Below, piece by piece: positions 41,901 through 64,000 of a stretch of DNA of 64,000 bases. This DNA is from Ulva prolifera (lineage: Eukaryota; Chlorophyta; Ulvophyceae; Ulvales; Ulvaceae). The stretch is taken from positions 3,993,310 to 4,057,309 of the forward strand of contig CM041197.1 of assembly GCA_023078555.1 (NCBI GenBank), given 5' to 3'. The stretch's first letter is position 1. The number at the start of each line of letters is the position of its first letter. A model generated the notes under the pieces. The model searched no databases. It saw only the letters and a program-made list of their open reading frames with translations, and was not told the DNA's origin. The position numbers were made by a program, and so were the translations under genes.

Positions 41901-42392
41901 AGCAGTGTCTCAGCCGGTCCATCCTGGGAATACATACGGCATCGCCCCCTCCTCGACTATCCGGACGGGGGCCTCTTGTATCAATCGCACAACATCGTAC
42001 TTGCTTTTGTACCGTTTGGACGGTGCTTTCGAAAAACCCTGCATTGTGTGGACGGTCGCTATGGATCAGCCTAGGGAGAATGTCTGGTCGGCGTCAAAAA
42101 GTTTCCTCTGGAATTACTGCGCGTCTGGTACGATGTTAACGTGATTGTCTTACTGCCTCTTTGGTGAGTCCTTATGATGGCTTGACGAGAGTAGCGCAAC
42201 ACATGCCTGTACAGATCTGTAGAGCCCGATACCTCCTACGCGGCCTGGCACTGGGTGAACTAATAACTGGATCGCTCGGCTATCCGTTATCCTTCAAACA
42301 GCCACACACCTAACGCAGATTACACGTGTGTCGTTCATTTGGTGTCACTGCTGCATGTATTACTCGGGGGCAGAAGTGTTGCACAACTGTAG
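41901..42392. other. Intergenic region
   Basis: Nothing recognised between the 246-aa frame and the 344-bp tandem repeat. Confidence 0.4.
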
Positions 42393-43147
42393 CAGTCTCT
42401 CCCGAGCAGCCCTCTTGCTGCACGACCCGGGACTCAAGCACAGATGCATCACACATCGAATAGGTATAAGAATGGGCGGTTTGTGGGCCACCAAAAAGTT
42501 TTGATGTCTGCTCTCCCGGGAGGGCTGCAGCCTCCCATTATTTAGTCCCGACACATGCTGCCAGAGCTGGTGTCTGCAAATGCATCGAGCCGTGAACCTT
42601 GGCTGAGAATGCAGTGGATATGTTTGTCAGTCGAGTGGTGAAAGAATTAATATGATAGCTTGAGAGTCCTGTCAGGATTGCACTGTTGCACGAGTGTGCG
42701 TGTTTGGCAAAATGCTGGCACGAGGCACGCATGTAGCAGTCTCTCCCGAGCAGCCCTCTTGCTGCACGACCCGGGACTCAAGCACATATGCATCGCACAT
42801 CGAATAGGTATAAGAATGGGCGGTTTGTGGGCCACCAAAAAATTTTGATGTCTGCTCTCCCGGGAGGGCTGCAGCCTCCCATTATTTAGTCCAGACACAA
42901 GCTGCCAGAGCTGGTGTCTGCAAATGCATCGAGCCGTGAACCTTGGCTGAGAATGCAGTGGATATGTTTGTCAGTCGAGTGGTGAAAGAATTAATATGAT
43001 AGCTTGAGAGTCCTGTCAGGATTGCACTGTTGCACGAGTGTGCGTGTTTGGCAAATTGCTGGCACGAGGCACGCATGTAGCAGTCTCTCCCAAGCAGCCC
43101 TCTTGCTGCACGACCCGGGACTCAAGCACAGATGCATCACACATCTA
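42393..43147. repeat. 344-bp tandem repeat, about 2.2 copies
   Basis: Units start at 42393, 42737 and 43081 (cagtctctcccgagcagccc). The third is partial. Units are nearly identical, so the array is young. Short frames inside repeat with the unit and are not genes. It lies just downstream of the copy A transposase stop. Confidence 0.95.
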
Positions 43148-43200
43148 ATGTGTACATAACCAGACCTGATTCTCAGCACAAAGCAACAGCCACCCTGCAC

Positions 43201-46126
43201 CTATCGCTTTACACCGGCATACCTACTTGACAGTTTTGCAGAAACACAAAAGAACCTTGTGTCACTTCTCTCGCGTGTCGGTACTGCCTGCGATTCGATT
43301 GACCTAAGATCTAGCACACACACCCCCTCAAACCGGGTGCCAGGTTTGGAGGGGTCCAACTTGTCAACTTTCACAAATTCGTGCAGCCGGCTGATACCCG
43401 GGTCTGCAGGCCGAACTCCCGGACCATGCTGGTCCACACTTGTGTACAGGTTAGCCACCCCCAGCCGCAAATCAGCTGGGTGCTGCCGATCGCAGCCCGG
43501 ACGATATGCCCCCTCTGGCAGCATACTACTCGTGAAAGTTGCGCGCACAAAGTACAAAAACTGCCCCACATACACCTTCATTTCAGTGCGCCCGTCTGCA
43601 TAAGCTACACTGTATCGGATCAGGAACCACTGATTGTTCTTCCTGGTCTGCGTTTTGCACTGCACACTGCTCATGGTATCCCCGATTGGAAGGTCAGCCC
43701 GGGTGAACTTCTGCAACTCCACCTCAACTCCAGCCTTGCCCGCACCGAGAGGGCCTTCCAACCCCAGTTCATGCAGAATGAGGCCCTCTCTTTCAGCAGC
43801 ATCGGTGTCTTTGAACACTGGCCACCCGTCCTGTAGGAGGGTCGTGTCTTCAAACAGGAGCAGAGGCAATCCCTTCATCAGCTGAGCATCCCCCGAAGCA
43901 CCCGGGGTGGGGCTCCACAGCACCTCTCCCTTTTCCCCGGCATCTACCTTCTTGGGTGCTCCCAGTAGCAGCGCCTGGTCTGGGAGGGGCATGTCACGTG
44001 AACACTGGCGACGTCTCTTGACGGCCCGCAGCGCTTCAGCCAGTGACACACAGTGACACCCGTCTGGAGTCAACTTCACCCGGCGGCATGCTAGGGTCAG
44101 TAGCCAATCGTGCACAAACAGCAGTTCAGGGTAGGCAGTACTGCGGTTCTTCACCATTCGCTTTACGAGCTGAACCATGCGTTCCACCCAGAACTCTGAC
44201 CACGTATAGCCAGGCCCACATGCCCGAACCTGGTCTGCCAGGTGCATGGCAGCAAGATGCAGCTTGTATGTCGTCAAAAATCTGCCCCCGTAGGCCTGCA
44301 TTCTCGAACATGTTGGCAAAGTGCTTTAGAGACGGCAGTCACACAAGCTTAACAAGTCTGCAATACGCATACGCAGCTCGATCAGCTGTCAGTTTGCCCA
44401 AGCGATTACATCTGCAGCGTGCGGACCTTCTCTACAATTCTCCCATACTCCAACAGATCTTTCTGTGCCTGCAATATTTGCTCTTCGGTGTGTTGACCAT
44501 CGTGCCACTTCATGAAATAATGGACCGAGGACCGCAGCAGTGTCCACTGCTCGTCGAAAGCCTTCTTCAGCCCGAGATGCTCTCGTTTCCACGGTAGGTC
44601 GTGGAGGAGGAACATGGAGAATGTCTCGGTGAATGCCAGCCATTCCTCCATCATCCACAGTCCTCTGTACCTGCACCAGCAGCAAACGATAGAGTTCATC
44701 GACACAATGTGGGGCATGCAATGCAACAGCAACGATTGCTTCACAGAAACTGCATGTCGAGACACCGACAGAGATGGCAGGAGACCCACCGAATCAAGTC
44801 AGTGTACGGCTTTCCAAACAACTCTGTCACCAGAATTTCAGATCCCTTTTTTGAGATGTGTTGCCGGATGTAAGTCGGGAGAACATGTCCTCCAGAAGAC
44901 ACCTGCCTCAGCCACATGCGCCAGAAGTCCTTGAGGATGCCCAGCAAGAAGATGTGCGCAATCCCGTATCGAAAGAAATGACACGGGCTGCACACTCAAG
45001 ATTAGGCAGTCAGTACTGCCCGTCAGGAAACATGTACATATTCTGGAAGACAGTCTTGACAGCAAGAGACATACTTCACGTATGACAGGCTCTGGAACAT
45101 CGGTTCTCCGCGAGCTCCGAGCTCCTTCTGCATCTGGTTGACCCACTCCTCCCGCTGGGTCTGATCCTTCTTTTCGACTGCTTCCAGTGATGGGTGCAGC
45201 ACCTGGTCTTGATAGAGTTTTGCCTTTTTTTACCACGCATCTTGATTTCAAGGTCGCTTAGCTTCAGCACATTGTCTGTCAGCCAGGTACTTGAGGCGAC
45301 ATCGATGGGATCAGTGAAGGCTGTCCTCGCAAGGTAACGCCCATCATCCTTCTGGAGGTAACCTAGTGGTACGCGAGGATGGTCCCCAGAGGTGTCAACA
45401 GCAGCCAATTCATGTGGATGCAACGTCTGACCTGCCATTGGTGCACAGCCGCCAGTTGCGGCATAACATGGGACCCTCTGTAACATTACAGCATCAAACC
45501 CCAACCACCTGCATACATATATACGGCAGCTATATCTGCAGATACACCAGGTGGGGTCTCAAGTGCAGCCCCGGCACGCGCCTGGATCTGGAATATCCGC
45601 CTTCCAGTCTACACAGCAACGTACCGGACAGTGTTGGCTTCGTGGTTGTGGGCCCCCGACATCGCACACGCAAAGCAGGCATTCGGCCCGGTATGATGCA
45701 AGCCGCCTGTTAACTTGGTCATGAACGGGATGTCTCCCTGCGCACACACCAGAACCGGCCACACTTTCAGCAGCTGTGGCCCGCCAACATCGACCAGGAG
45801 AGGTGTGGAACCCGGTCGGCCTGTAGGTTCACTCAGTGTGAGAGACTGCTCAACAGGAGTGGAATGTCGTTGAAGTCAGTAGGCATGTACATGTACAGCA
45901 ACACCACACCTGGATCATGTTTCTCAAAGAACTCTATGATGGGTGCCATGACATCATGGTAAGACCCAGGCTCTGTTGGTCCTTGAACGATGCACACCGG
46001 GGACCATGTTATATTCTTGGCTTGCAAACCCTCTGGCGCATCAGTCAACTTCAGCCCACAAGCCAACGTACCGTACACTTTGTTGGTGTAGATCTGGACA
46101 CCATCCCCCCCTGCATGAGCCGGTGG
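43201..46126 (-). pseudogene. CACTA (EnSpm) Tnp2-like transposase, copy A, split by insertion
   Basis: Minus-strand coding blocks match copy B in order: AGGDGVQIYTNKVYG and IIEFFEKHDPG (46126-45860); VWPVLVCAQGDIPFMTKL then CFACAMSG (45790-45640); CHFFRYGIAHIFLLGILKDF (about 44990); MMEEWLAFTETFSMFLLHDL (about 44660); YKLHLAAMHLADQVRACG and EFWVERMVQLVKRMVK (44270-44140, DUF4218-like); and a C-terminal domain with NNQWFLIRYS and VYVGQFLYFVRA, ending at 43201. Several introns separate the blocks. The N-terminal half is missing because the giant CACTA element inserted at 46126/46127. The frame resumes in the 15 bases after 63985 (reading SSVTM into PPAHAGGDG). The rest must lie right of the window. 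Broken by insertion, otherwise apparently well preserved. Confidence 0.85.
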
Positions 46127-46157
46127 CACTAGGAGAATGGCGACACGGCGAAACGGA
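46127..46157 (+). repeat. Left terminal inverted repeat of the giant CACTA element
   Basis: Begins CACTAG. Mismatches to the right TIR at positions 7, 23 and 27. Preceded by the TSD TGG. Confidence 0.88.
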
Positions 46158-46680
46158 TCCGGGTGTCGTCCGCCAGATTCCGAAAGTCCGTTCACTCTCT
46201 GATACCTCTCCGGCGTCATCGGAAGCGAGCAGTCGGATGGACCTTGGACTTTGGCACCGAATCATCCGCCGACCCAGGTATAATCTGCCGGACTGTGGAC
46301 GTACCTTACCGCTGCAAGTGGCCTTGGCGTGTCTGTGCCGGCTGCCATGATACGAGGTCACTTCGGGCCAAGCCCGCGCTGACAGTGGATCGAATGATAC
46401 TATTGGTTACTTTATTACTACACGCGTATCTGGAAACGACTGGATTGGACACGGTGCAGGTATATGTGGACCCATACTCATGGCAACTGACATCGACTTT
46501 GGGCAGGAGACGAAGCTGGAGGCAGGCTCACAATAGCGGTGACTTTCTGCATCGCCCAAGATAGCGTTGGTCCGTGTTTCAGGCTCGGCAGCAGTCCATG
46601 TAGTGTTGGTCGTCGCCCTGTGAATGGTGGCCGGAAAAGCGTGCACATAGGTTCCTGGATGCGAATGCATGCGGTGGTCC
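46158..46680. other. Left subterminal region
   Basis: Contains scattered cggatcc, tcatcgga, gtcggatgg and attccgaaag motifs related to those near the right end. Chance open frames only. Confidence 0.45.
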
Positions 46681-47031
46681 AGAGTGGCCATTCGGCGAAT
46701 GGCCACTCTGGCGGAGTTACGTCATCATGCTCCAGGTAAGGCGTGCGCTCGTCAACCTGGACGCGAATGCATGTGATGGTCCAGAGTGGCCATTCGCCGA
46801 ATGGCCACTCTGACGGGGTGACGTCATCGTCCTCAAGCAAATGTGTGAACTCATCCCGATTAGTACCTGGCTGCGAGTGCATACGCTGATCCAGAGCGGC
46901 CATTCGCCGAATGGCCGCTCTGGCGGGATGACGTCATCGTGCTCCAGGTAACGAGTGAGCTCATCCCGATTAGTATCTGGATGCGAGTGCATGCGCTGGT
47001 CCAGAGTAGCCATTCGCCGAATGGCCGCTCC
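46681..47031. repeat. Left palindrome array: 4 units of about 106 bp
   Basis: Perfect or near-perfect 29-bp palindromes at 46681-46709, 46783-46811, 46893-46921 and 47003-47031, sharing GGCCATTCG(C/G)CGAATGGCC flanked by AGAGT/ACTCT or AGAGC/GCTCT. Paired changes in the arms (AGTGG with CCACT, AGCGG with CCGCT) keep the symmetry in three units. Each linker carries gacgtcatc and a gcgaatgcatg(c/t)-like stretch. The array ends about 250 bp before the ATG at 47285. Confidence 0.95.
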
Positions 47032-47284
47032 AGCGCGGTTGATCTCACCCCGCCCTACCCGAGTGATCAGGCGCCTTTGCATTCGGGGCCCCCAACTTGG
47101 GTCGTGCTTCATGAAAGGGACAAACGGTGGATATTGTGTATGATACGGCTAACGTCCAGCGTTTGTAGTTCACCTGGCGTTTCAGTGCACCGCGTCCCTG
47201 CTGGCGTCGTATTCCTTCGCCTAGCTGCGCTGCTCGTGACCAGTTACCGCATCCGGCAGTGACTAGAATATTTGTTTGCAAACA

Positions 47285-50200
47285 ATGGATCCGCGCCATG
47301 CTGCAGCAGTTGCAGGGCTGTCAAGTACCCAGAATGGGCCTACTTCCGCGCGCAGCGGAGACTTACTCGTCGGTCGCATGCGTACTCAGAGAATCCCTGT
47401 AGTGGGTACTTTGATTTCAAGGGACGGGCGTTTTACGGATCGTGCCCGCGTCGGCCGCAACGACGGTCCACTGTCCGGTCCTGGGGTGTCGGTGTGGTGG
47501 TCCCTGGGGGTGGTTCTGCGAGACGACGTGGTGGAGAGTCGGACGAGGGAGCTGGGTACGGCCAAGGAAGTGATTGTCACTACCTGTCTCGTGCTCTCCT
47601 CCTGGCTGCACGAGCAGGCAATGCTCGTGTCCTCGTGGGAGGGCAAAGGGAAGACCCCACATGGCTGCCTGGTGCCCCGGCGGTGGAAGCCCCTGTCGGG
47701 AAAGACAGAGGTGTGTGTGCCCGGTGTGCTGGTGGATCAGCTGAGCGCGATCTGCATTTACTGCCAGTCCACTGACACGGGGCCCGGCTAACCTGTGGAG
47801 TGGGGCCACGACTCAGTGCCGCCATTTGTGCAGGTTGAGATCACCGGCCACGTAAGTGAGTCTGGCCTCCCTAAGACCAGAATCACAGCGGAGAGAGATC
47901 CGGAGCTTCGCCAGCGGTTCGATCTTCCTCAGATCAACGTGGGGGGAAAGCGAAAAGGCCCGGACCCCCCGCGTCCAGACGGTGTGCTCTCTGCACGCAT
48001 GTTGTTATGTAACGCAGTCACGTATGCTGTCCCCACATCGTGCGCGGCATGGCCTCCGCATTTGTGCACAAGTGACATGGGTGTTCTCGGTGCAGTGTAT
48101 CATTGCTCCACCCCGCGACACGTCGTGTGGGCCTGGGCTTCCTTCATGTCTGGGCTGTCCCCTCATCGCACCAAGTTGTGGACAGCCGGAAAGGCGTCTC
48201 CCGCGGTGGAGGGTCACGGGTCCTCCAGGCACAGGGAGAGACCCACATCCAACCTCCCAGAGGACCTGAACCCGCTGGTGGCGTGGGTGCTGTATGAACA
48301 CGCACACTACCTCCAGCTCGAGAGCATGGATGAAGATGAGCTCGAGCCGTGTCAGTCGATAGCACGGCACATTGGGGACCGGTGCCACAGGATGTTGGCG
48401 AACACAAACGGGGTCCCTGCACAGCCGGTTTTCCAGCTGACCTCGGGCGTGCCGGTGTTAGCTGACATGCACACCTCGCACTCGGACCTCATCAAAGCTT
48501 TCGTGCGCTCCTGTGACTTTCCATGACTCCGGCATGGACAGGGGGACTGCCTATTGGTCTGTGTGCTGTCCTGTTCTACCAGGCATTTGTGCCTTATCGC
48601 ATGCATGATCGTGGCCATGGTGCCCCGGGCCCTGTTTCTGTTGATCCCTCAAGTCTGGCCTGTCACCGGCCTGGGCTCGAGCTGTGTAGTCAGGTCTCTT
48701 TGCGTGCAGGATGTCAAGATCCTCGGCGAGTTTGTCGCGGCGCTCGACAACTTAGGACCCTGGGTATTGGCTTATGCGGCGGAGCACCCTCTGTTTCATT
48801 GTGCAGAGGTGCGAGGTGCCACTGACCTGTACATGCCATCGAGAGCTGCGTGTCTGTGCAGAGCTGTATATGCTTTCTGTTGCCCGTCCCCCATTGTTGA
48901 GTATACCTGGATCTCGCCGTGCAGGGTGACCGAGTAGCCCGAGCTCTCCGTCCGGCGTGGAGTTCTGTCCAGGCATTCAACTCCCACATCATGTGGGCAT
49001 GTGAAGGGCTGCAGCTGACCTCTACGGAACTGGCGTCCTTCGCCACGAATGGGATCCACCTGTTCATGCATGCTTATCGGCGCCTCGTCGCCGCGGCTGT
49101 GACAGGGGACCCGGGGGCGCCTGTCCTGGAGAGGCGGCGTGTGCAGGACATTCCAGCCTTGGAGCCCAGCCTCCTGGATCCCGCCTTTGCCGCCATCCTG
49201 GTGTGCACGGTAAATACCAGCAGTGCGCTACCAACCTTTTCTTCTCCATTGTTCAGGATTCAGTTGTTACCTGCTGTAGCCCCGATGTGGGGCAAGACTC
49301 AGCTTTGCAGACAGTGCTCTCGTCTGAACCACGCGGTGCATCCAGGTTTGGTGAAATCGGGGTATGGTCAGCCCGTTAAGAGGCTGGCCGACGACCTGAT
49401 CCCCTTGTGCCCGCCCCACACGCTGTGGCACTGGGCGCTCAGGAGCTGGCGGTACCTTAGCGTGGGGCAGAAAGACACCGCGGGGAGCAGTTCCGGGAAA
49501 TCAGCATCCCCGCCGGTTGTCCGCCTTAGGCCAGGATCATTCCCCGAGATCAAGGACTGGGATTATGCCGGCGCTGAAGAGCTTGCCAAGCTGTCCTTGG
49601 CCAAGGGGATGCAGAGCTCAAAGTGTTACATGTGCGAACCCCCGGTGATGGTCCCTACAGAGTCCAGGAGTGTCTCTTGCAGAACATGCTCCCTGCATGT
49701 TCAGTCGTATGCGACTGAGTACTGGCCATCGTGTCCTCCTGTTCTTTCACCAACGGGAGCATGTGCTGCTGTTAGTTGATCCAGAGTTGACATGCACGGG
49801 CCCTGGGACTACCAGCGTGTTCTGTTTGTTGTTGGCGACTCCGGTTAATGTTACAGGGCGGAGCTCAATAACATTCCCGAAGGTATCCTCGCCACCCTGC
49901 CCGAGGACTTCCGGCAGCCGCCTGTCGTAGCACCCCAGCCTACCCCTGGGGCAGGGGGTGCCGGTGACACCCCTGCCTCTGGCCAGCGCAACCGTCGACG
50001 AACCGGGAAGCACGAGGTAGCTAAAGCACGTACCAAGTCGCTAATGCTGCGTAAGATGGGGCTGCCACCAGCCAAGAAGGGGGACACAGCCGCTGGCGGC
50101 ACCGATACCGACGGCAGCGACACTCAGGAATCCGGTGGGGACAGGGGCACCACCCGCCCTGCGTCCAAGGTGGCCACAGGGCCAGAGGTGCTCGGCCTGG

Positions 50201-51919
50201 GTTCCGCTGCGGGACCGGGGCAGGGGGGGGCAGTCTCCCAGCCGGGGGGGGGGGTGCGTGTGGCCGTCCCGCAGCGGCTGTGCCGGTCACGGCAGCGACA
50301 GGGGGGTTGAGCCTGACTGTGGGGCGGGGGGTGGTTTGGGGGGGAAAGCAGCGGCGGTGGCAGATTCGGGGGCGAAGGCGGGATTGAACCCCACTGTGAG
50401 GGTGGCAGCCACTGGGGGGGCTGCGGAGGCATTGCCAGTCACAGCGCTGAAGGCGGGACTGAGTCCCGTGGAGGGGAGGGCAGCGGGGGGGGGGGACGCG
50501 GAGGCTACGGCAGGCTTGGCGGGGCAGGGCGGGTTGAGCCCAACGGTGGCGGGGGAGGCGGGGGGGGGGGGGCGCGGAGGCTAAGGCAGGGTTGGCGGGG
50601 CAGGGCGGGTTGAGCCCAACGGTGGCGGGGGCGGGGGGGGGGGGGGGGCGGGGGGGGGCCGGGCTGCGGAAGCTATGGCAGACATGGCGGCGCGTGGCGG
50701 GTTGAACCCACCAGTGGGGGGGGAAGTTGTGGGGGATTTTGCGGGGATCCCCTTGCAGGGTCAGGACGCTACCGGTCGTCCAGAAGTGGGCCCCTTTGGC
50801 CTGCCTGTCCCCGTGCCGGCGGGCGGACCGGAACCCGTCCCTACAGGGTTTATGCAACCGGACAGTGCGGAAGGAAGTGGGGGTCTGGTGTACGATCCGG
50901 TAGCAGACGCCATGTTTGCAGATGCTCTCGCTGAGGCAGTGCTGTATCCGGAAGACCACTCCTCAGATGATTTCGGATCCATCAGCTTGGATGACGATTC
51001 GGATCGTTCTGACCCAGCGGACCCCCGCTGCGCTGTGCACGAAGTGGCGACAGAGGACCCTGAGACTAGGCCGTCCCAAATAATCTACCTGCACGATAGT
51101 TCGGGGTCAGTTCGTCTAACCGTGGACGAGTCCTTCGAGGAGCAGAAGACTACCCTGCGCATGGCCGCCACTTTCGTATCTCCTCCGGGTGGTTCGGTCG
51201 GGCGTGCTGCTCAACTGCGGCTCATTGTCGTGGCAGTTGACCTGATGTTGGTAAGCACCGCCGGCATGGATTTGACTAAAGCGGAGCGCTTGGTCCGCAT
51301 GAAGTCGATCATATCGGCGTACGGGCTCCAACCAGATGAAGACACTGTATCCGAAGTTGTGTCACTGATTCAGACGGTGCGCTCCTCCAAGCAAACTACC
51401 CCCGCCCCCCCCCCCCCCCCCCCCCCCCCCCCCCTGGCCAGTCTGTCGCATGGCCGTGGTGGGCCAATTCTCTACTCCCGCTCCCAAGGCAGATGTACAG
51501 AACCCACAGATGTTGACCGTGCAGGGACGCAATTCTACAGAGGGCAGCGAAGCCGTCCCAGCCCCGGATCCTGTGGTGAATACTGGTTGATGAGCAAAGT
51601 CCCTGGGGGATGGGGGCCTGTGGTGAATACTGGTTGATGAGCTAAGTCCCTGGGGGATGGGGGTGCCGGTAGCACAGCTGCGTGGGAGTACACTTTAATG
51701 CGGCGTGCAGTGTCCGCTAAGCCATCACGCGTAGCACTTCCCGGCAGTATCAGCACAGTCACTTTGTTAATGCAGATGCTACGGGAATACGTCACAATTC
51801 TTCCCAGTTCGGCGGTAATACAAGGACGGTGGGCCACATCACTGTACAGTGATGCAGCCCCGTCTACTAGTGTCATACGCTCTGCTATAATGCAGGGGTT
51901 CACCGTTGTACCCCTCTAA
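47285..51919 (+). CDS. Cargo gene 1 of the giant CACTA element, unknown multi-exon protein
   Basis: ATG at 47285. Supported exons, all joined in phase 0: 47285-47710, 47834 to 48502, 48710-48808, 48925-49209, with donors GTGTGT, GTGCGC, GTGCGA and GTAAAT. Later coding parts are less certain: FPEIKDWDYAGAEELAKLSL followed by Cys pairs CYMC and CRTC (about 49545-49700); a basic region with NRRRTGKHEVAKARTKSL (49858 on); GLNPTV-type repeats (50190-50720); an acidic region with SSDDFGSISLDDDSDRSD; MDLTKAERLVRMKSIISAYG; a poly-Pro run; and a tail MRRAVSAKPSRVALPGSIST to 51919. Two TGA codons at 51635-51640 precede that tail, so another intron or an earlier end is possible. The Cys pairs may bind zinc. 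Function unknown. Confidence 0.6.
50190..50720. repeat. G-rich coding minisatellite
   Basis: Imperfect units of roughly 70-80 bp with ggggcagggcgggttgagcc and several G8-G12 runs. On the plus strand they encode repeats of GL(N/S)P-V-(A/E)G separated by Gly/Ala stretches. Frame changes between G-runs make the exact protein uncertain. Confidence 0.75.
51405..51434. repeat. Poly-C tract, 30 bp
   Basis: C30 on the plus strand inside the poly-Pro part of cargo gene 1. Length errors or polymorphism here would shift the frame. Confidence 0.95.
51571..51665. repeat. 50-bp tandem duplication
   Basis: Two near-identical copies of a 50-bp unit starting gtggtgaatactggttgatg at the 3' end of cargo gene 1. 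Fifty bp is not a multiple of three. The second copy contributes the TGA TGA stops, unless the region is intronic. Confidence 0.85.
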
Positions 51920-52319
51920 TCCTACAGCGCCGACCTGGTGTAGCCGTTGAGGATTGATAGGATTTTTTACACGAAATAACGATTAGAATACTGAGTCGAA
52001 CTCCGTACGCAAACTGTGGCGTCTTGTCTTCTGTAGACAATGTGTTCAGAACAGTTTCAGCTGTGCCTGCCTGGCAGCAGCCCGCAGCGCTGCAGATACA
52101 CCGAGGTTCAGTGCAGCTGCAGCGAAATGGCATCACCTGGCCTGTGGCGTCGGAATGTCCCGGATGCCACCCTTCAGTGACTCATACACGCGTCTTCAGC
52201 GAAATAGCCATCAGCTTGTTATACTGCTGACTCAGGGTAGCCACTACCGGGCTCGCCTTCTCCAGGAAGGTGTCAAAGCGCGCCTGCAGGTACCACTCCC
52301 TGCAGATCCAGCAGCTTCA
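51920..52319. other. Spacer between convergent cargo gene 1 and the protease gene
   Basis: No coding support on either strand. Probably holds both 3' untranslated regions. Confidence 0.4.
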
Positions 52320-55300
52320 TCAGGCAAAGGTCCCCACCGGGCCTCCAAGAGGGTGCCAGAGGATAGATGGTGACAATGCTGCGGTGGACATGGCAGGTGC
52401 ATCGAGTCGCCCGCACCTCAGCCCCTCTTCGGAAAAGTCGTTGAATGGCGGTGTCGGGAGGTGGCGGTCCCACCTAGCGTCGGCTAGCATCTTGGTGCCG
52501 TCCTCGACTGATAAGTGTCCCAACTTGTCGCCCCCTCTCCCGCCTCGGTGCCACTCTTGAATGAGGGCTCGAGTGAGGACGATACGGTACAGCACCGCGT
52601 GCTGCACCTTGACGCGGTTGGTGAGTAACAGGACCCTTCGAGTCGCCTCGACACCGTGGATGTCACTGCTGAACACAGTTCCCCCCTCCTGTCGCATGCG
52701 GTGGATGACGTCGCACACAGCGTCGGCCAGCATGCATGTGAAAATCCCGCAGTCGTGGCCGTTTGGTTGCTGCGGGGTTCCTCCAACCTGGACACCATTG
52801 GGGGACGGTTATAATGCTAATGTTACGTCAACAGATCAGGTCCACCGCAGACCTTGGACGCGGGGTGGTTCCAAAGCAGTACGCTGTCCGGTTTCGGGCA
52901 GAGAGGGGGGGGGGGGGGGGGGGGGGGGGAGTCTGGTGGGCGCAATCAGAGGGTGCTGTTGTGTCAACGATTGCAGTCCATTTGGTAATATGCGCGACTG
53001 TCAAGGGTCAGAGGACAGCATCTGTGTGGATGGTATCGCAGGCGAACAGTGGGACGTGAGCATTGTACCTTCGCCAACTTCAGGGTTATCCTAGCGGTGG
53101 ATTCGGTCGGCCGGGTGGCCAGTCGGACGTTGTGTCGGCGGCCCACTGCTTTTACCCGAGGCCGGGTGGTAGATGGGGGGTCTTCCGGGGGGGAGGGGGC
53201 CCGGCCCTCGGGGCAGTCAAGCGCCATGCACAGAGCCTCACTCAAGACGTCCCTGGCCCGTTCAGCGGTCCCTGAGTCGGCGCTTGTCAGGCTGTCAAAG
53301 AACGACACAGTCGGCGCCTTATTCTGCTTCATACGCCCTGCATTAACGCTGAAACGTCAGTAGTGGCGTTCAGTGGGCGTCTGTTGGGGGGGGGGGGGGG
53401 GGGGGGGGGTGGGGGGGGCATATGACAGTCCCTCGCACAGCAGGCTACCTCATCACATTGTCAGCTGCCGCGGGAGAGCGTACATGGGTGCCAGATGACA
53501 GCCAACATCCAGTGGCTGTTCCGGGGAACAGGGACTAAGACGCATTCTTGCTCAAAGGTGTGAGCTCTGAACATCCACCGCCCCATAAATCTGGTGCGTC
53601 CGCTTGACCAGTCTGCGTCCGCATCCCCAGTACATATCCCAGCCATATTCTGGCTAGGCGTTGCAATGACGCCCTGCCCGGCCAGCGCGACACACCTACT
53701 CAAGGCGTAGTCAACGTGTGCACTCTCGGCCCATGCGGTGGGCCAGCCTCTCGCGAGGGTGTCCAGACCGACTGTAACAGACACCCGAGCATCCCCAAAA
53801 TGCCCTAGCTGCAAGGTCACACCCCCCACCACATTCGGGAACCTCTCCCCATCCTCGTCGCCGGAGGACACTACGGTCGGTTCAGCTGCCTCCTGCGTCG
53901 TGTCGGCAGCGGATGAACCGGCGTCTTTGGAAGTGGACCCCCACTGCTGCTTCAGCTTGCCCGGAGGCTTTGCAGGGAGGTTTGTGACCCAATCCGGTGG
54001 CACCACCGGAGGGTGTGCCAGGAGGGACACAGCTGACAGCCGCGGCTTAACCTTACCGGCGGCCGAAGGCTGCGGGACGTCCGGGGCAGGAGGAAGTGCG
54101 GACAGGATAGGCCCCTCTTGACCGGGTGCTGGACAAGCAGGCTCCGGAGAGGACCGGAGCGGGGGGGGGGGCCTCGCCGATGGAGCAGATGGCTGCACCG
54201 ACTGGGGCAGGTTGGGGCCCCTCGCTAGGGCCATCATCAGGGGTGACGGATGGAACCTGATTGGCAGCGTCCAGCCGTGGCGGCGGCAGACAGCCACTGG
54301 TCCGCGACGGCGACGGCGGCCTCACAGGGCCAACCGGCTGTGGGGACTGCGGGGGCAACGCCACAGGGGGAACCCCTACTGCAGCCGGCCCCTCTGGCGG
54401 CGGATGATCCCGGCTAAGGATCTGCGCTACGGCCGCAGCCCCCCCCCGTGCGGCACCCCGTGCCCCCCTGGGCAACCTAATTCGTGCGGGCTGCTGAAGA
54501 CTGGTGCCCCGATCTGCGCGCCCTCTACCCGGTGCCCGTGCCCCTCGTGCCTCGCCAACCCGCTGCTGCTGCCGCGGATGGGTGTGTCTGCCACGCCCCT
54601 GCCTTCGGTCACCCGGGCCTATACTGGTGGCGATGGACTCTGTTGGCGGCGGGGCAGCGACTGCACCCGGTCCTGGGGCTGTGGCGGTGCCTGTGACACC
54701 CCCAAGAGCGGCGTCGGGTCCCCCCCGGTCTTCACCGTCCGACCCGCCCGCCCCACCCCTCTCTAGCTGTAACGCCAACATGGGCGCCTGCAGAGGCCCC
54801 ACCTGCACCTCGGAGCGAGGCCACTTAGGATTTGGAGTCCGTGCGAAGTTTGCCTCGCACTGTATCCACTCGCAGATCAAGTCTGTCCCGCCCGTGTGCC
54901 GCACACGTTCGAGCAGGCCGCCAGCGTCTTCTATGATGCCCGCGCCGACCTGGCAAGACCGGTACAGCACGATATCCTGTGGCTTGCACGGGGCCTTAGT
55001 ATGGACCGCGCGCTCGAATGCGATCATCCGGAGGTCGTGCCAGAGGGATTTCATCTTCTGCTCTACCCGCGCGGCGTGGTCGGCGGTTTGTGAAGCCTCT
55101 ACACTCTCCTTCATCGCCCGGATCGAGTCCAGGTACATTGCTAACCCTTCCCCCCCGGCCTCCACTATACAGCCCACCATGGAAACATCTACAGTCGTTA
55201 ATAGGTAGGCGTTGGCCATGAAGTCTATCGGGAACCCGGGCTTCCGGGTACAGATCGTTAGTGCTGGGATCGGCTGGCCAGGCGTCCAGTTACCCTGCAG

Positions 55301-55426
55301 GGCGGTTTCCAGGAACCGCTTGAAAGACGAGTCACACGAACGGTTACTACGAATTGTCGCAAGGTAGGCCCGCAAGTCCGCGTCCTTTATCATACTGGCA
55401 CACATCGTGTGGACTGTACACCGCAC
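52320..55426 (-). CDS. Ulp1-like (C48) cysteine protease, cargo of the giant CACTA element
   Basis: The three last exons join in phase: one ending at 53484 (donor GTACGC) with VPVPRNSHWMLAVIW, the catalytic His of HW; 53337-53069 with PTVSFFDSL, the catalytic Asp; and 52787-52320 with QQPNGHDCGIFTC, the oxyanion Gln and catalytic Cys. This His-Asp-Gln-Cys order is the Ulp1/SENP deSUMOylase-type fold. Upstream is an about 250-residue N-terminal domain (MIKDADLRAYLATIRSNRSC, then MKSLWHDLRMIAFERAV) and a long Pro-rich linker. The N-terminal and protease parts are in different frames that meet at a G11 tract (54161-54171), so either that tract is off by one or an intron lies there. Ulp1-type proteases are known from several plant DNA transposons. 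The substrate here is unknown. Confidence 0.82.
52905..52929. repeat. Poly-G tract, 25 bp
   Basis: G25 on the plus strand, inside the intron between the Asp and Cys exons of the protease gene. Confidence 0.95.
53386..53418. repeat. Poly-G tract, 24 + 8 bp
   Basis: G24, one T, then G8, inside the intron between the His and Asp exons of the protease gene. Confidence 0.95.
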
Positions 55427-55758
55427 AGAAACGTTCTATCCGCGCTATCGCGACGCAGTCTTCCTACATCAACTGCATCAGACCTTGCACCTACCATTAA
55501 TCTGTCCGCTGGACCTGCGACGTGCACTAACAGACGACACCGACGCTTGAAGAGGGAGCGAAAGTGGCCACGAGCGCACGACGCAGGACGTGGGTTGTAT
55601 GGCTCCAACGAGGGTGGCGCCTGTAGACACGCACTGGCGGGGACTCTGGTCCCCCCCGTGGCCGTCTGGCAAGTATGGAAAATGCAAAGTGGGCACAACT
55701 GGGATTGCAGTCAACTGGGATTGCTGACGAAGGCATATGCGGCGGTGGTCTTGTACAA
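55427..55758. other. Spacer between transposase 3' end and protease 5' end
   Basis: No supported coding sequence. Should hold the protease promoter and the transposase 3' end. Confidence 0.4.
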
Positions 55759-58700
55759 TTACACAGTTCGGCCAGAAGCCTTGTTCGCAGTGGCCCAATA
55801 CTGCACATTTTGTGCACCCCTCCGGACTGGAACTAACTGGCATGGAACTGCGTCCAAGTCTACGACGTATCTGCCGGCATATGCCCGAGACCCCCTGTTT
55901 GCACCCGCCACACCGAAAAACTCAGGGGGGCGTTTCAACACGGGATCAGGGGCGCGGGCTCCCGGGGTGGCTGGCAAGGTGCAATTATACAGATCAGCAA
56001 CCCCCAGGTACAATGGGTTTGGTTTCGCAACACATGACACGCAACACACGCCATCCCGGGGCTGCAGACACGCCCTCGTGAAATACTGCAGTTCCCCGAC
56101 GAAATACGTCACTGTCCCGCCACCCCCGTCCCCGTCCCCCCCAATGAGGTACCTCAAGAGGCACCACTTGTTGTCTTTCTTCCCTTGCGTACCCTGTTGC
56201 GCGCAGCTGAACATGTCTGCAACGCGGGATTGCATCTGGTGGAACTTCATCAGTGTCACTGTGCCCTCACGGCGAGCCTCATCAACAGTGCCATTCACCT
56301 TCAGGCCCAGAGCTCGGTGGATGGCCGCGCGACGTGCATATCCAACCCCCAGGCGACAGTGAGTTGGCCAGCCCTCATCCTGTAGGGAATCCTGATGGAA
56401 GAGGAGGTACGGCAGCCCTGTCAGCTCATCTCCCACGAAGTCAAGGGGGAGGACCTCTGCAGTCTCAGACTGGGCAGGAGCCCTGCCCACCCCGACGACC
56501 CTGCCGGAGATCCGGTCGCTGTCGACTGATTGATCCCCGTCAGCGGATCTTCCATTGCGAGTTCGTGCCCGCCGGCGTTTCTCCGTCGCTATGGCATCCG
56601 ACAGTGAGGTCATGGCAGCAGGCAGTGACGCTGCATCATGTAGCAGCCGCATACATGTGCGGCGCAGCAGTTCATCGCTCACGTATACTTGTTCAGGGCA
56701 ACGAGTCGATCGATATTTGATCAGCCTCTTCAAGAGCTGGACCATCCGCTCGATCCAGAATTCAAGACTGAAGAAGGATGCGCCGCAGCACCTCACCTGA
56801 TCCGGGAGGTGACAAGCTGCCAGATGCAGCTTGTACGTGCTGAGAGCGGCGCCCTCAAACGTCTCCTCCGCCAGCTTGGCGTACTGCAGCATCAATCGCT
56901 GTGCTTCCGTGATTCGGGCCGGTGTGTGCTGACCCTCTTCATATCTGAGAAAGTAGAGGGCCCCTGCTCGCAGGAGCCCCCAAGACTGCTCAAACACACT
57001 GCGTATGCGTTTCTCGGAGGCTTTCCACGGGAGATCGTGCAGGAGGTACAGCGAGAATGTCTCGGTGAAGGCCAGCCAGTCTTCCATGAGCCAGCGACTG
57101 CGGTGCCTACGCAAACAGTCACCCTGACTCAGACGGGCTGCTTCAATAGGAGTGCACATGGTTCCTGCAGCTGTGTCCAAGTAACAGTCCGACAAATGGC
57201 GCAGCCTCGGATGCGAGCAGGGTGTGCAGGCGATGGGACTGCGCACTTGGTGATGTCGGTGTACACCTTCTTGAAAAGAGAGGTCTGCATGATGTGGGGC
57301 GCTCTGGCAGCTATCGCCTTGACGACATCCTCTGGCAGTCGGAACAGGGCCCGGAGGCCAGTCAATGGCGCCTTCTTGGACTTCTTCCGGCCCAGGGGAG
57401 GGAGCCACTGGTTCCAGAAGTCCATGAGCACACCGAGCAGAAACACGTGCGCCACTCCGAGCCGGAAGAAATGGCAGGGACTGCAACGCCACAGCGTAGT
57501 TCATAATCAACTCCAAACTCAAGGGCGAGGCAGGCAGCAGCAGGCTGGGGGTGCTCGTACTTGAAGTAGGAGAGGAGACTGAACAGCGGAGAACCTTTCA
57601 CCCCCAGTAGCTTGTACTCATCTTTGGCGAGCTTGGCCCTGGACTTCGGTGTCTTCCGGTCGCAATAGCGTTTCAAGGTTGGTGCGTGGACCTGCACTAC
57701 CACAGGCCTGGCCAGGGTTACCACAACAAAAGAGCCGTATCACCAACGACGCTTGTTCGGTGACAGAGGGGTTGGCAAGATGAGTTGCGGCGCACAGAGG
57801 GGGGGCAGGGGAGTAGGCGGCATGTGCACAGTTTGCATGCTATGACACTGTAGATGGAATTGCACCTGGGCAGCGATCTTGTCGCCCTTTCGGCCCCTGG
57901 CCAGGATCTCTGCCGCCGAGTACTTCAAGCGGTTGTCAGACTCCCAGGACGAGGGCTGCACATGCCGGGGCTCAGACCACGCGGTCCGCGGAGGGTTGCC
58001 ACCAGTGTCCGGTTGTACACTCCCAGGCACCATCCGGGGGTTTGCAGCCGAAGATGCTGCTTCTTCCTCCGGGGTGAGTGATTTCCCTTTCAGAGGCCCG
58101 TCGGCATAGCAGGGCACGGGCTGGTGCAGAGGGTGATGGTGTCCCATCCACCTGTGTGGCATGCATGATAGCAGTTATAAGCAGGACAGGTACGTGAGAC
58201 AGCACTAGCAGGAAAGAGATTACAAACGTAAGTGAACACCCCGGACCTGACAGTGTTGGAGGGGTAATCCCACACGCCGTTTTGGGCACATCTGAAACAT
58301 GCCCTCTTCGCTGTATGGCCGATGCTGTTGGTAAGTTTCTCCAGCCATGGGATATCCCCCTCCACACAGCACAGCACCGGCCACACGTGCAGTACCTCGC
58401 CCCCTGGCAGTGTGATTTCGAGTGCCTCACCCCCAGCTCCTGCACTCCAGCCATCACGTGGTGCGGGGGCCAGACACTACGTGATCGGGAACTGTACACA
58501 TCACCCGGCAGTGACCAGGAAGACAAGGTGAGTGCGCGCCCGGATCATGCTTCTTGAAGAACGCCATCACGGACTCCAGAATGCTGGCCATGCATGTTGG
58601 TTCGGATGGCCCCTCCACCACTCCAAGGGGAATCCAGGCCACATTGGTACTTGAGAGATGGGGCGGCAGGTCAAGCAGGCGGATCCCCCAGATGGTGACA

Positions 58701-60286
58701 CCGTGCTGCTTGTTGACATACAGCTGGGCCCCGTCCCCCCCTGCAGGAAAAGCGACTGTCGGGACACGAGGCAGAGGGTCTCAATTCGCGGAGTCGCATA
58801 GGCGTGCCGTTTCGGTGTGCCTGATAGCCAGCTGCTCAGATGAGGAGGTGGAGCGCACCGAGGCTGAACAGCAGGACAAGCTCCCTATGCTTTGGCTTCA
58901 GGATTTTGCCCCCACACGCCAGGTTGAGGGCCTTTCCAGCCGGGGAGTTGAGGAAGCTGCTTTTGTCTTTGACAGCTGTTGCCCTGGCTTCCCGTACGCT
59001 CGTCAGCAGCCCCGGCTGCAGGAGGAGGTCTTTCAGCGAGGCTTCTTCGCCAAAGAAGAAAGCAGAGCGCACTGGGACACCCTTCCCTGTGAGATCGACA
59101 TCGAATCGCTGTTGACAACAACCAGGGGTTCCGCAGGTGTCCGCCAAATGCTGGTGATGGTCACCCGGATCAAGTGGGGGGAACAAGGTCCAGCATTGGG
59201 GACAAACGTGGCGCGTCACAGAGGAAACAGGCGGGACACCCAACACCGCCTTGACGAGGTGAAAGGAGGGGGGGAACAAGTTGCCATCGGGTAGCAGGAG
59301 GTAATGTATGAACCTGCACCACGTATCGACGACCACGTCTTGTATGCGAAAGAGGCTCTTCAACTGGGCAATCCACATGCACACCGTGAGGACGGTGAGG
59401 GCGCTGCCAGTGTATATGTGTTTCATGCGTTGGTCATGCCACCAGGCGCCCGTGCCCTTACGGGCCCCTGTGGTGGGGAGCGGGCCGTCGTCATCCGCCT
59501 CCTGCATGGGCAACGATGCGGCCAGTCCCACGGAGGAGTACGAGCGGATTCACAGCATTGCATGTAATGGAAGATGAGGACACACCTCGGATTCGTCTGA
59601 ACTGTAGTCCGTCTCTGAGGAGAAGGCAATGGAGTCTGCGTCTGAGGTGTCTGAGTCGGCGTCTGAAAATTGTGCGGGGCCCTCGGCATAGTCACTTTCG
59701 GACGGTGGGGGCAGCTGTATCACAATCCCAACACATCAGAGTTGCTTTGGGCGAGCAGGCAGGATACAGCTGAGGGACAGACGCGCTGACACCCATGGCC
59801 ATCGTGATCACGAGCCGCTGTCAGGCCGAACTGCATCATGATCAGGCAAACCGGGACTTAGCACGGTCAACTACCGAAGGTACGCACGTCGAAGAGGTCG
59901 TCGGAGTGGGCAGGCTCATCGGGGGGACCCCCTATGTCTGGAGGTGATGGGGATCTCCCAGAGGGACCGGCCCCGTCGTGTCTGCCGCTGCGGTCATCAT
60001 CGGCAGTAGCGGAGGTCGGGCCAGCGGCTGGCCTCGAGTCTGGGCCCGCGACGTCGTGTCCACCAGCGGCTCTCCGCGATGTGGCTGCTGCACTCAGTCG
60101 ACGGCTGCAAGGACCGTGATGGTTTTGGGCGGTGTTGTGCCTCTGAAACTTCTCACCACAGGCTAGACACTGGTATTTAAACGGTTCCTTCCCCGTCGGC
60201 TCGGGAGGGGTCAGGCGCTTACAGTTCGCTTTGGCAACCAATTCGTTCACCTCCGCCCTCTTCAGTCTATTCGCCGAACCGGCCAT
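55759..60286 (-). CDS. CACTA (EnSpm) Tnp2-like transposase with N-terminal zinc finger, copy B
   Basis: First three exons are resolved and in phase: 60286-59888 (donor GTGCGT), 59714-59586, then from 59501. Exon 1 holds a finger YQCLACGEKFQRHNTAQNHH ending in C (Cys2-His-Cys/BED-like). Exon 2 is an acidic Ser/Asp linker. Exon 3 begins the Tnp2 part with FPPSFHLVKAVLG, HVCPQCWTLF and FFFGEEASLKDLLL. Later blocks: AGGDGAQLYVNKQHG and FFKKHDPG (about 58780-58550); VWPVLCCVEGDIPWLEKL, then CFRCAQNGVW (about 58390-58260); RLGVAHVFLLGVLMDFWNQW (about 57460); MEDWLAFTETFSLYLLHDL; YKLHLAACHLPDQVRCCG; EFWIERMVQLLKRLIK (DUF4218-like); and a C-terminal domain with TYFVGELQYFTRACL, ending at 55759. A TGA in the frame before AGGDGAQ may be intronic. 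This is the likely enzyme that moves the element. Confidence 0.85.
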
Positions 60287-60623
60287 GGTAGCCAGCAGTA
60301 CTTAAGCATTCTTGTGACGAGGTTCAACAATAGCGCGGCCTCTGGTGTTTGTCGTCCCTATGATGGCATTACGTCCCACGAAGACCTCCCTGTCGCATCC
60401 CATGTTCGCCCTGACGCCACAATCCCTGGCGAGGCGCCGGGGTATCGAGGCAGCCAAACCTTTGAAGGCGGACCGCGCGACGACGCTACATCGGCATACC
60501 ATTCAAAGCACGGAGCAGCAAAGCATGTGCGAATGACGCGATATGTTAGCTGTGCCTACGATACGACCATCCACAGTACCGGCCATAGACGTGTGTTAAT
60601 TCCGCTTTGTCTAATCATCCACC
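60287..60623. other. Divergent promoter region
   Basis: Lies between the transposase start (60286, -) and cargo gene 2 (60624, +). No palindrome copies here. Presumably a shared bidirectional promoter. Confidence 0.45.
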
Positions 60624-61551
60624 ATGTCCAACCTGCAGTTCACGTTCCTCCGCGCGGCGCCCGTCGTCATCGAGAAAGAAGTTGTAGATGACGCAGACAA
60701 CGGAGCAGGGATGCTTGACGTGCTGGTCAGCAACGTGTGGAGCAGAGGTGCCGGCGTCGACGGGTTGACTTTGACGTCAACCGTCGACAAAGACAGCTCC
60801 GTTGATATCGACAGTGTCGAGAAACTGATGACGTGCGTAAAGTACTTCTTCAGGAAAGGCACAATCGCTGGACTGCTGAAGCCGCCCGTGCTGGTGAAGG
60901 CGCTGGGCAAGGGCAGAGGGAGCGTGGGACAAGCGTCGGCAGCCGTCGGCACTGCACACTCCACAGCTACGGCCTTGACTGCGGACCCCGAAGCTGCCAG
61001 GCGGTGGGAAACGATGAAGGATGCGGTGATGATGTGGACGGAAGGGATGAGATCCAAGGTGGCGGGAATGGCCGATGCCCACACGCGAGGCAAGAAGGTG
61101 CAGGCACTAGTGAACCTGGCCCTCCCAGACGACGAGAAGGTGTGGGTCGGGAGTATTCTAACGAAAACACAGGCGGACGCACTCGGCAAAGCTGCACATG
61201 GGGTACGGCTGCTGTCTCCGACTAACAACGTGATTGCAAACTGGGGTCCACTACCACCCCGTCAGGGCCACGGGATCGCATGCCACCGACTGTCAGTGTA
61301 GTGTCTTGGCACGTCAGAGTCGCCATTCGCGGTCAGTATGCAGTGACGGATATCGTGTACAGGTCGGCAGAACAGGTGAAGCGTACGAAGCTGCTACTAA
61401 TATCAATCATGCTTTCTACCGCCAGCACGCCCATTTGAACGCCGTGACCAAAGAGTGTGCCTCTGCTGATGCTCGGGTTATGCCGTACCTGTTGCCGTGC
61501 CCAACGGTGGCGGAGAAGGGAAGCACACAGTATCCGCCCAAACGGAGGTGA
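60624..61551 (+). CDS. Cargo gene 2 of the giant CACTA element, unknown protein
   Basis: ATG at 60624 in a good context (caccATG). The first exon reads MSNLQFTFLRAAPVVIEKEV, then DSVEKLMTCVKYFFRKGTIA, then EAARRWETMKDAVMMWTEGM, to at least about 61200. A second coding part starts after the acceptor gtgtacag near 61373 with VGRTGEAYEAATNINHAFYR and ends KRR* at 61551. The donor between them was not fixed (phase-0 candidates near 61200-61300). No domain recognised. Transcribed away from the transposase gene. It could be a TNPA-like accessory protein, which is speculation from position and context only. Confidence 0.6.
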
Positions 61552-61699
61552 CCCGATGTGCAGTAAGTTTTCGAGACGGGCGTGGGACCATAACACGGGC
61601 CTGCGGAGGAATCCCAGCGCCCGCGAGCAGAGGAAGCTGCTCGCGGCAATGAATGTGTTCCAGAACACCAAGGCATGTCCTCCACCTTGGTCAGAGTTG

Positions 61700-62049
61700 G
61701 AGTGGCCATTCGCCGAATGGCCACCCCAGCGCGAATGCATTGTGTTGCACTGCACGCGGCCGGAGTGGCCATTCGCCGAATGGCCACTGCAGCGCGTCAT
61801 GCATTGTCTTGCACTGCACGCGCCCGGAGTGGCCATTCGCCGAATGGCCACTCCAGCGCGTCATGCATTGTGTTGCACTGCACGCGCCCGGAGTGGCCAT
61901 TCGCCGAATGGCCACTCCAGCGCGTCATGCATTGTGTTGCACTGCACGCGCCCGGAGTGGCCATTCGCCGAATGGCCACTCCAGCGCGTCATGCATTGTG
62001 TTGCACTGCACGCGCCCGGAGTGGCCATTCGCCGAATGGCCACTCCAGC
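61700..62049. repeat. Right palindrome array: 6 units of 63-64 bp
   Basis: Each unit carries GAGTGGCCATTCGCCGAATG continuing to CCACTC (27-bp perfect palindrome in units 3-6) plus a linker cagcgcgtcatgcattgtgt. The core equals that of the left array although unit length and linker differ. The array ends 30 bp before the ATG at 62080. Long frames in all six phases here are repeat artefacts. Confidence 0.97.
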
Positions 62050-62079
62050 GCGGCGCGGCCTGCTTGAATCCGCACTTGC

Positions 62080-63168
62080 ATGGCCACTGACCTGCCATTC
62101 GGCGACTGTGTTCCAACCAATGTGGTTCGTGCGCAGTTCACCGTGAGAGGAGACCGCTTCCCTATCGATAGCGAACCCATGAAAACCCCCGAGGCCTGGG
62201 CTATGGAGGACGGTGAGTATGTGTGCGAAGGAATCGCCAAGGTTGCTGCGGCCCGGCGCGCCCTCGAAGGGACCGCTGACTCTCCCGTCCAACGGGGCAA
62301 GAGACAAAGGAAGACCGAGAAGGTACAATCTCACCACACGCTGTACTGCCCGCCTGAGGTTGGCCATTAAGTGGTACCGGGATTGTACGGGCGCCTGTGT
62401 GAGCGGCATGTGCCATCATTCGAGGCAGCCATGCGTGTACAGGCTCCTACCGCATCGAAGTCAGGAAGACGGGGCACTCATTCCAACAGCGGACGGCGCA
62501 CAATGCTCGCTGACTTTTCTCCCCGGCGGCCAGGGCTAGAACCAAGGGCAGACCGCACTGCTGATAAGGACAGTGAGCACCAGCCGGACGTGGAAGAGGT
62601 GGGTCACGATCAGATGGGTGAAGAGGAAGAGCCTGATTCTCCCCAGCGGGCAGACGATCGATGCGAGTCCCCGGAGATGGAGTTACAAGCCGCAGCGCCG
62701 GTATGTCCTCTTATGATTTGTGCCAATTGACGCCTAGTCCGATTGTACTTGCCCCACCCATCATCAGACCAGGTGTAAGAGCGCCTGTACATTGCAGAAG
62801 TCCAACAAAGCTCTTGAGAAGCGAAAGGCCAAGGCAGAGAAGGAGGCCGCCCTCCAAGCGCGTAGGGATATTCGGAAAAAGATTGAGGATTGCGAGGCTA
62901 AGCTGGCAAGGCATCAGCCCAGAAGCAAGGGTGCGAGTGTGCAGAAATTAAAACAGCAGGTTGCTGTATTGACGGTATGTCACTACCCCGATACACTTGA
63001 TCTGACATGTGACACCAATGCCTGCAATTGTAGCACTATTTGTGTGACAGTCGCTCAGACCTCGAATGCATTAGAGCCGTGCACTCATGCAGCTGGTATT
63101 GCATGCAGGCCGAGTTGTCAAAGGTGCAAGACTCCTTAATTGACGGCTTCCCGGACGAGGACGAGTAG
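62080..63168 (+). CDS. Cargo gene 3 of the giant CACTA element: coiled-coil protein (245 aa, 4 exons)
   Basis: Exons 62080-62322, 62443-62700, 62798-62974 and 63109-63168 all join in phase 0 (donors GTACAA, GTATGT, GTATGT; acceptors end in CAG). N-terminal part MATDLPFGDCVPTNVVRAQF, then GEYVCEGIAKVAAARRALEG and a basic KRQRK stretch. The second exon is acidic (DVEEVGHDQMGEEEEPDSPQ). The third is a coiled coil (KALEKRKAKAEKEAALQARR, then KLKQQVAVL). It ends DGFPDEDE. The start codon lies 30 bp after the right palindrome array, so the array is in its promoter or 5' UTR. A basic region plus coiled coil would suit a DNA-binding dimer, but no known family is recognised. Confidence 0.75.
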
Positions 63169-63951
63169 ACATGCCAGTGCATTGTATGGTTGTATTTGGG
63201 CCATCTCAGGACCATCTTGCAGCCTGTACGTATACATAGGTCCTTTGCCCGGTCCTGTCCGCGGAATGTCAGGGAGTCTGTCCTGAGGAAATGTGTGGGA
63301 GTGTGAGCTATGTATGAATCTAGCGATGAACAAGGAAAGCACGCGCCATGTAAGCACCTACAGCATATGAATGCAGGCATGTTGCCAACTGCAGCCCCGT
63401 GTTCACGTGCCTCATAACAAAGAAAACAACCACATCATGCTTCCACAAAACCGCGAACCTTCCTGCACTCCGCTTACATGTGCGCGACCAAGTCTGATCC
63501 GGTAATAACGCCCATGACGCCTTTGGTCAAGCATTGCGTGTCCACAAGTGCACACTCCTCGTAACCATACGTGAGTATATCTCAAGCCAGACGGATACAT
63601 GTACGTCAAGAGATCACCAATCCTACGGCCCAGCCTGTACTTCCCGCATCCCCGAGGCGGACGCCATACGGATCCGAGACGGATCCGAAATTTAGTGCAC
63701 GCGTCCGTAGTCCCTCCGTCGGACGCACAACGGAACCGTCTTTTCTTCCGTACATCCTCCGGTTGGGCTCCAAAGGCAGGCTAGTAACAAAAGGCGTTGC
63801 CCTGGGGCGTACCGGACGGGAATCGGAAAATCCTACCTGCCACTGCCCCACCTCCGCCACAAGTCTCCGATACTCCTAGCAACCTACGTCCGGCCTCCAC
63901 CGATTCTCCGTAGGCTCTCCAACTACCCCTCCGCACACACTACGTCAACTC
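63169..63951. other. Right subterminal region
   Basis: No gene supported. The last about 380 bp repeat short motifs such as tccgatac, tccgattc, ctccgtag and cggatccg in both orientations, typical of subterminal transposase-binding repeats. Confidence 0.55.
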
Positions 63952-63982
63952 TCCGATTCACCGTGTCGCCATTCTTCTAGTG
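63952..63982 (-). repeat. Right terminal inverted repeat of the giant CACTA element
   Basis: Reads CACTAGAAGAATGGCGACAC inward on the minus strand. Followed by the TSD TGG (63983-63985) and 15 bases of copy A transposase sequence. Confidence 0.88.
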
Positions 63983-64000
63983 TGGCATTGTCACACTAGA

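Follow-up and report, generated by a model that had tools for sequence, protein, structure and literature searches.

A 17.9-kb CACTA-type element with five genes and palindromic arrays in the green alga Ulva prolifera

Results

Element ends, copies and empty sites

The window analysed here, a stretch of 64,000 nucleotides from contig CM041197.1 of the Ulva prolifera assembly GCA_023078555.1, contains between positions 46127 and 63982 a CACTA-type transposable element with five genes, designated A to E. The original prediction, made from the letters of the window, had described a CACTA transposon with exact ends, CACTAG termini agreeing at about 28/31 positions and a 3-bp target-site duplication (TSD), TGG. 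The left end of the element reads CACTAG from 46127, the right end reads CTAGTG to 63982, 28 of 31 bases agree between the two terminal inverted repeats (TIRs), and TGG stands on either side, so that both ends and the TSD were borne out to the base.

46124..46126, no strand: left TSD, TGG (from the sequence and empty sites)
46127..46157, plus strand: left TIR, CACTAGGAGAATGGCGACACGG..., common to 11/11 copies
63952..63982, minus strand: right TIR, ending ...CTTCTAGTG (from the sequence and TIR comparison)
63983..63985, no strand: right TSD, TGG (from the sequence and empty sites)

A beta-tubulin exon from the genome (88.9 Mb, 44 contigs) has its closest PDB relative in 6u42, a Chlamydomonas structure, in keeping with a green-algal host. 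A search of this genome with the element ends, as the original prediction had proposed, returned at least 40 scored matches for each of the 301-bp left and right ends and led to further copies of 17.6–18.9 kb. Ten of these were assembled and, together with the window element, make up a set of 11 copies (17,573–18,904 bp) of what is referred to here as family 1. All 11 begin with CACTAGGAGAATGGCGACAC and finish with CTAGTG, and identical 3-bp flanks were noted in 9 of them. TIRs that open with CACTA and a 3-bp TSD were also found in the single copies examined of two further families (families 2 and 3). Between the window element and copy C4_2956828, a region of about 5.9 kb that runs from the transposase to beyond gene D showed 0 transitions and 3 transversions in scored columns. 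The window element is thus one copy of a large family, which has probably been active recently. At C3:1549937-1553367, left and right ends were separated by only 3.4 kb, a probable internal-deletion, non-autonomous derivative.

When the 320 bp that flank the element were joined and compared with the genome, matches were obtained at 34 places. As judged from coordinates and identity rather than from viewed alignments, 18 of these cover positions 1–320 at 91–99% identity, 7 of the 18 being exactly 320 bp long; the remaining matches comprise one over 1–296, the two half-sites of the window itself and 13 partial ones. By this comparison the 18 places are uninterrupted paralogous sites. A length of exactly 320 bp is what a site with a single TGG and nothing inserted would give, and both element boundaries are therefore well fixed.

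Genes

Exon models were derived by comparison with a copy about 70% identical in its left half and with the two further families. Introns are mostly of the pattern GTGCGY...GCAG, and the order and strands of the genes are A (+), B (-), C (-), D (+) and E (+).

47285..51637, plus strand: gene A, from conserved exons and splice sites; exons 47285-47710, 47834-47981, 48096-48502, 48710-48808 and 48925-~49200, with approximate 3' exons ~49300-49650, 49858-50310 and 50585-51637 from family comparison
52182..55405, minus strand: gene B, protein of ~830 amino acids with a conserved N-terminal domain, a Pro/Ala-rich middle and a C-terminal Ulp1/SENP cysteine protease
55759..60286, minus strand: gene C, Tnp2-like transposase of 1141 amino acids, 8 exons from comparison among families; 60286-59888 (putative zinc finger), 59501-58859, 58740-58540, 58439-58247, 58151-57866, 57691-57561, 57480-57247 and 57097-55759
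60624..61301, plus strand: gene D, ~225 amino acids, single exon, with 62% identity in family 2 and 40% in family 3
62080..63139, plus strand: gene E, ~280 amino acids, exons 62080-62322, 62443-62700 and 62798-63139

The Ulp1-type protease of the original prediction was confirmed in gene B by a profile match to PF02902 (E=7.9e-8, 32.8 bits against a cut-off of 20.7) and by SENP2 (1tgz, E=2.3e-7) as the best relative in the PDB. Catalytic H, D, Q and C are kept (HW, FFDSL and QPNGHDCG, residues read by eye), and B therefore shows both the profile match and the His-Asp-Gln-Cys residues that define Ulp1/SENP proteases (Peptidase_C48). We infer that the N-terminal part and the protease belong to one gene. 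The three genes described as unrecognised, A, D and E, are supported as genes by conservation and had no significant Pfam match in profile searches. A three-sequence profile of D run against the PDB with hmmsearch gave nothing under E=0.49; matches to D were found in 103 stretches across the genome. Protein E, read by eye, has an acidic middle and a Lys/Arg-rich, coiled-coil-like end. Viral origin or carriage was considered and set aside, since 2 of 8 scans of IMG/VR viral contigs, which covered only chosen peptide patterns, found no relative of either D or the main exon of the transposase.

Gene C had been predicted to encode a Tnp2-like transposase with a zinc-finger exon. The putative zinc finger gave a weak Pfam signal (E=0.05–0.21), and DUF4218 was detected at E=0.16 in the window protein, 0.0064 in family 3 and 8.9e-5 in the homologue from the element that hosts the insertion, all below the Pfam curated cut-off. 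In plants, DUF4218 accompanies Tnp2. This weak sequence evidence points to a Tnp2-like protein. One intron of C is of the GC-AG type, as in family 2, and GT-AG in family 3. In some degenerate copies of the transposase, TGA accounts for most of the premature stops, with 5 and 10 TGA in individual copies.

Conservation of the five genes across families

The same five genes, in the same order and orientation, were found in the copy of family 2 (18,347 bp, TSD CAC) and in that of family 3 (18,601 bp, TSD CAT). In each of these two copies the left and right ends match at 24/30, and the last exon of C is 57–58% identical in amino acid sequence between families; the match to E in family 3 was the weakest of the five (E=0.002–0.003). 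Among the matches listed, which included 70 transposase loci, A was in the expected place and orientation at 49 and both A and D at 43. The original prediction had been staked on a second locus with this gene order, and the colinearity of A and D at these 43 loci leaves it standing.

Ratios of nonsynonymous to synonymous substitution rates (dN/dS), estimated with codon bootstrap and with frame-shifted frames as controls, were below 1 where divergence was measurable. Compared with family 2 and with the other version of A and B found in family 1, dN/dS was 0.30–0.39 for the 5' exons of A and 0.26–0.29 for B. Values for C were 0.17 against family 2 and 0.11 against family 3, and those for D were 0.40 and 0.23, respectively. 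Comparisons of A, B and E with family 3 were saturated, and those of D and E with a mosaic copy (see below) were uninformative. The excess of synonymous change was lost in the frame-shifted controls, with the least clear contrast for E. Together, these comparisons support all five genes and the view that A to E travel as a unit, in keeping with the self-contained module of the original prediction.

An improbable alternative is that an ordinary one- or two-gene CACTA element captured A, the Ulp1 gene, D and E by transduplication and carries them as cargo with no role in transposition. Gene capture by CACTA elements, Ulp1 included, has been published for plants (PMC2528002 and PMC13317346), and a captured origin would suit genes that lack a significant Pfam family, as do A, D and E. 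Decay would, however, be expected of captured fragments, whereas order, orientation and dN/dS below 1 are kept across families whose transposases have diverged as far as noted above, and D was in its expected place and orientation at 64 of the 70 transposase loci.

Several findings weigh against an intact five-gene CACTA-type unit. A perfect TSD is missing in 2 of the 11 family-1 copies (tcc/tcg and ata/gat), and at 27 of the 70 transposase loci one or both of A and D were not found where expected, whether from decay, detection limits or another layout. Gene E is weakly constrained (dN/dS 0.59 against family 2, confidence interval 0.42–0.77). Among family-1 copies dN/dS ranges from 0.36 to 1.96, a spread that does not demonstrate that a given copy is functional today and that would be expected where selection acts on some copies but not on others. 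For gene C, no match to PF02992 (Tnp2) was obtained with the spliced protein or with two relatives and the DDE triad was not identified. On balance, a five-gene CACTA-type unit with exact ends is supported by its near-identical copies and empty sites, by the colinearity of the families and by purifying selection between them. The window is likely to contain a single, recently inserted giant element of CACTA type that looks autonomous and would move by cut and paste.

At four family-3-like loci (C1:4760813, C1:10280859, C3:2085816 and C6:5706002), an A-like match was noted on the transposase strand about 3–4 kb away, a different gene order that perhaps leaves no room for B.

Palindromic arrays

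Two tandem arrays built on the same palindrome, a feature absent from the original prediction, lie inside the ends of the element.

46654..47030, no strand: left array upstream of A, 110-bp unit x3.5, with inverted repeat GAGTGGCCATTCG-C-CGAATGGCCACTC (some units vary)
61699..62052, no strand: right array between D and E, 64-bp unit x5.5, with the palindrome of the left array, ending ~28 bp ahead of the E start codon

Such subterminal repeat arrays, a hallmark of CACTA elements, are paired in all three families, and in the window element they are placed asymmetrically, about 0.5 and 1.9 kb inside the ends. The palindrome core is identical in family 2. In family 3 the arrays occupy the same two places and have a core version of their own (CCCGAATGGT...ACCATTCGGG in the right array). 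The inner 23-mer has 331 exact copies in the genome as opposed to 0 for a reversed control, and each of the 100 places listed (all on C1–C3) was seen by eye to have a copy of A, of D or of a left end no more than about 3 kb away (100/100). Perfect even-length palindromes of at least 16 bp were also tried as a marker and rejected; they do not mark the arrays, whose repeat has a 1-bp spacer.

Exchange of genes A and B

The block that carries A and B is replaced in other copies of family 1, a second feature absent from the original prediction.

46951..55757, no strand: exchangeable cassette, genes A and B, replaced in other same-family copies by a version ~70% identical

In two mosaic copies, identity to the window drops to 70% over the block that starts where the left array ends and stops at the stop codon of the transposase (~46951-55757), whereas the ends and the retained transposase and right half are about 92–99% identical. 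The A and B block of the window is 96.4% identical to the copy on C7 compared with 70% for the mosaic copies, while the transposase block is 94.7% identical to the C7 copy and 98.0% identical to the mosaic copy C1_3862382. Among 29 family-1 loci with a detected A, match identity indicated the window version (94–100%) at 18. These discordant block identities point to recombination, and A and B behave as a cassette that can be swapped between copies, with breakpoints at the left array and at the transposase stop codon. That the mosaic copies are instead assembly artefacts or reflect rate differences, without recombination, is very improbable. Only two such copies were read at the sequence level, and the right half of one of them (C1_3931097) is mostly replaced or missing, which would suit an artefact; against this, the distances of the C7 copy and C1_3862382 are discordant between the two blocks, the aligned stretch of the two mosaic copies shows 98.4% identity between them, and a version of A only 63–74% identical was found at the other 11 of the 29 loci.

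A further locus, C9:323136-338653, is a possible cross-family mosaic: its left end and gene A (94%) are of family 1, but the adjoining transposase, which contains 10 TGA, is only 58% identical and its D 67%.

Host of the insertion and other features of the window

43204..46126, minus strand: 3' portion of a diverged Tnp2-like transposase gene from a different element, by sequence comparison; the gene resumes past 63986 into the following 9 kb

This host transposase belongs to another element and is diverged (31–45% amino acid identity, depending on the stretch). The insertion sits in its 83-nt intron (GTACGG...CATGCAG), 16 bp upstream of the 3' splice site, and a frame shift separates the two exons. 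Because the insertion lies inside an intron, no reading frame is cut, contrary to the interrupted frame of the original prediction.

Past 63986 (joined-flank coordinates 47193-50634), an exon of the host element with a zinc-finger-like motif adjoins the host transposase, followed by a plus-strand gene where D would be and a coiled-coil-like open reading frame where E would be; pieces of D, A and B had no tblastn match there at E<=1e-3. A 344-bp unit (x2.2, 97% identical) at 42388-43149 lies directly downstream of the host transposase. Elsewhere in the window, open frames of 1543 and 1852 amino acids at 17227-21855 (+) and 31917-37472 (-) look like intact Ty1/copia-type polyproteins, as recognised by eye.

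Discussion

The element may work as follows. Protein C would recognise the CACTAG ends and probably cut there. The arrays probably bind an element-encoded dimeric protein, by which the ends would be paired and A and E regulated, by analogy with TnpA in En/Spm; the best candidate for this binder is protein E, which is basic and coiled-coil-like. Protein B would most likely act as a deSUMOylating enzyme on host silencing factors or on the transposase, allowing the element to escape repression, and the conserved proteins A and D may be accessory factors.

A possible but doubtful alternative is that A and B form a counter-defence cassette of the VANC type that targets the palindromic arrays, as in VANDAL elements of Arabidopsis. 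There, arrays of tandem motifs are bound by VANC, and Ulp1 is part of some VANC genes (PMC10398659, PMC13317346); this precedent makes counter-silencing a serious option. In agreement with it, a conserved N-terminal domain precedes Ulp1 in B, the tandem arrays lie outside coding exons and differ in core in family 3, and A and B are exchanged as a block. The arrays, however, lie outside the exchanged block and, because a mosaic copy with the other version of A and B retains an unchanged palindrome core, array specificity does not track A and B. A strong signature of CpG decay was looked for and not seen: transitions at CpG sites were just 1.3–3.7-fold enriched in the five most diverged of eight pairs, and strong past CpG methylation is therefore not evident. 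A broader proposal can be put forward tentatively, namely that A and B are a portable counter-defence cassette (a SUMO protease and its partner) swapped block-wise while the transposase and ends stay, by which element lineages would renew their escape from host silencing, and that the palindromic arrays serve an element-encoded regulator as docking and control sites.

Multi-gene autonomous CACTA elements are seldom intact enough for genes needed for mobility to be separated from cargo; in this genome young copies are numerous, three families are colinear and recombinants have arisen naturally, which makes the separation feasible. The presence of a conserved SUMO protease in a cut-and-paste element, swapped en bloc with A, makes the question of why transposons carry Ulp1 directly testable, and the 23-bp palindrome offers a precise means of identifying the DNA-binding protein of the element itself. 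The literature searched, which did not extend to Repbase or to papers elsewhere, contained no account of a green-algal CACTA lineage with five genes.

The Ulva element resembles VANDAL/KIU elements with VANC in having an extra gene with Ulp1 and tandem-repeat arrays, the targets in VANDAL/KIU, in non-coding DNA (PMC10398659, PMC13317346). Those elements are Mutator-like and so belong to another superfamily; the likeness is one of description, and anti-silencing by the Ulva element is hypothetical. Closer in kind are the CACTA-ULP families of grapevine and rice (Cactavine-2, -3, -4, -5 and -13), which likewise combine a CACTA element with an Ulp1 domain (PMC2528002). By description, their ULP domains are transduplicated, whereas Ulp1 in the Ulva element ends a conserved protein encoded within a five-gene set. 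The original prediction had called the element large for its kind, but 17.9 kb falls within the published range, since CACTA elements of 17 kb (Tam1) and 20.5 kb (Tgmt*) are on record (PMC2613891). Size and Ulp1 alone are thus not new, because both CACTA elements of 17–20.5 kb and CACTA elements with Ulp1 have already been published. With En/Spm, Tam1 and Tgmt* the Ulva element shares CACTA TIRs, a 3-bp TSD, a transposase that is putatively of Tnp2 type, repeat arrays inside the ends and a size that in this group reaches 17–20.5 kb. It differs from them in a transposase too diverged for PF02992, in arrays of palindromic tandem units upstream of A and E, and in having five separate genes on both strands as opposed to one or two that are alternatively spliced.

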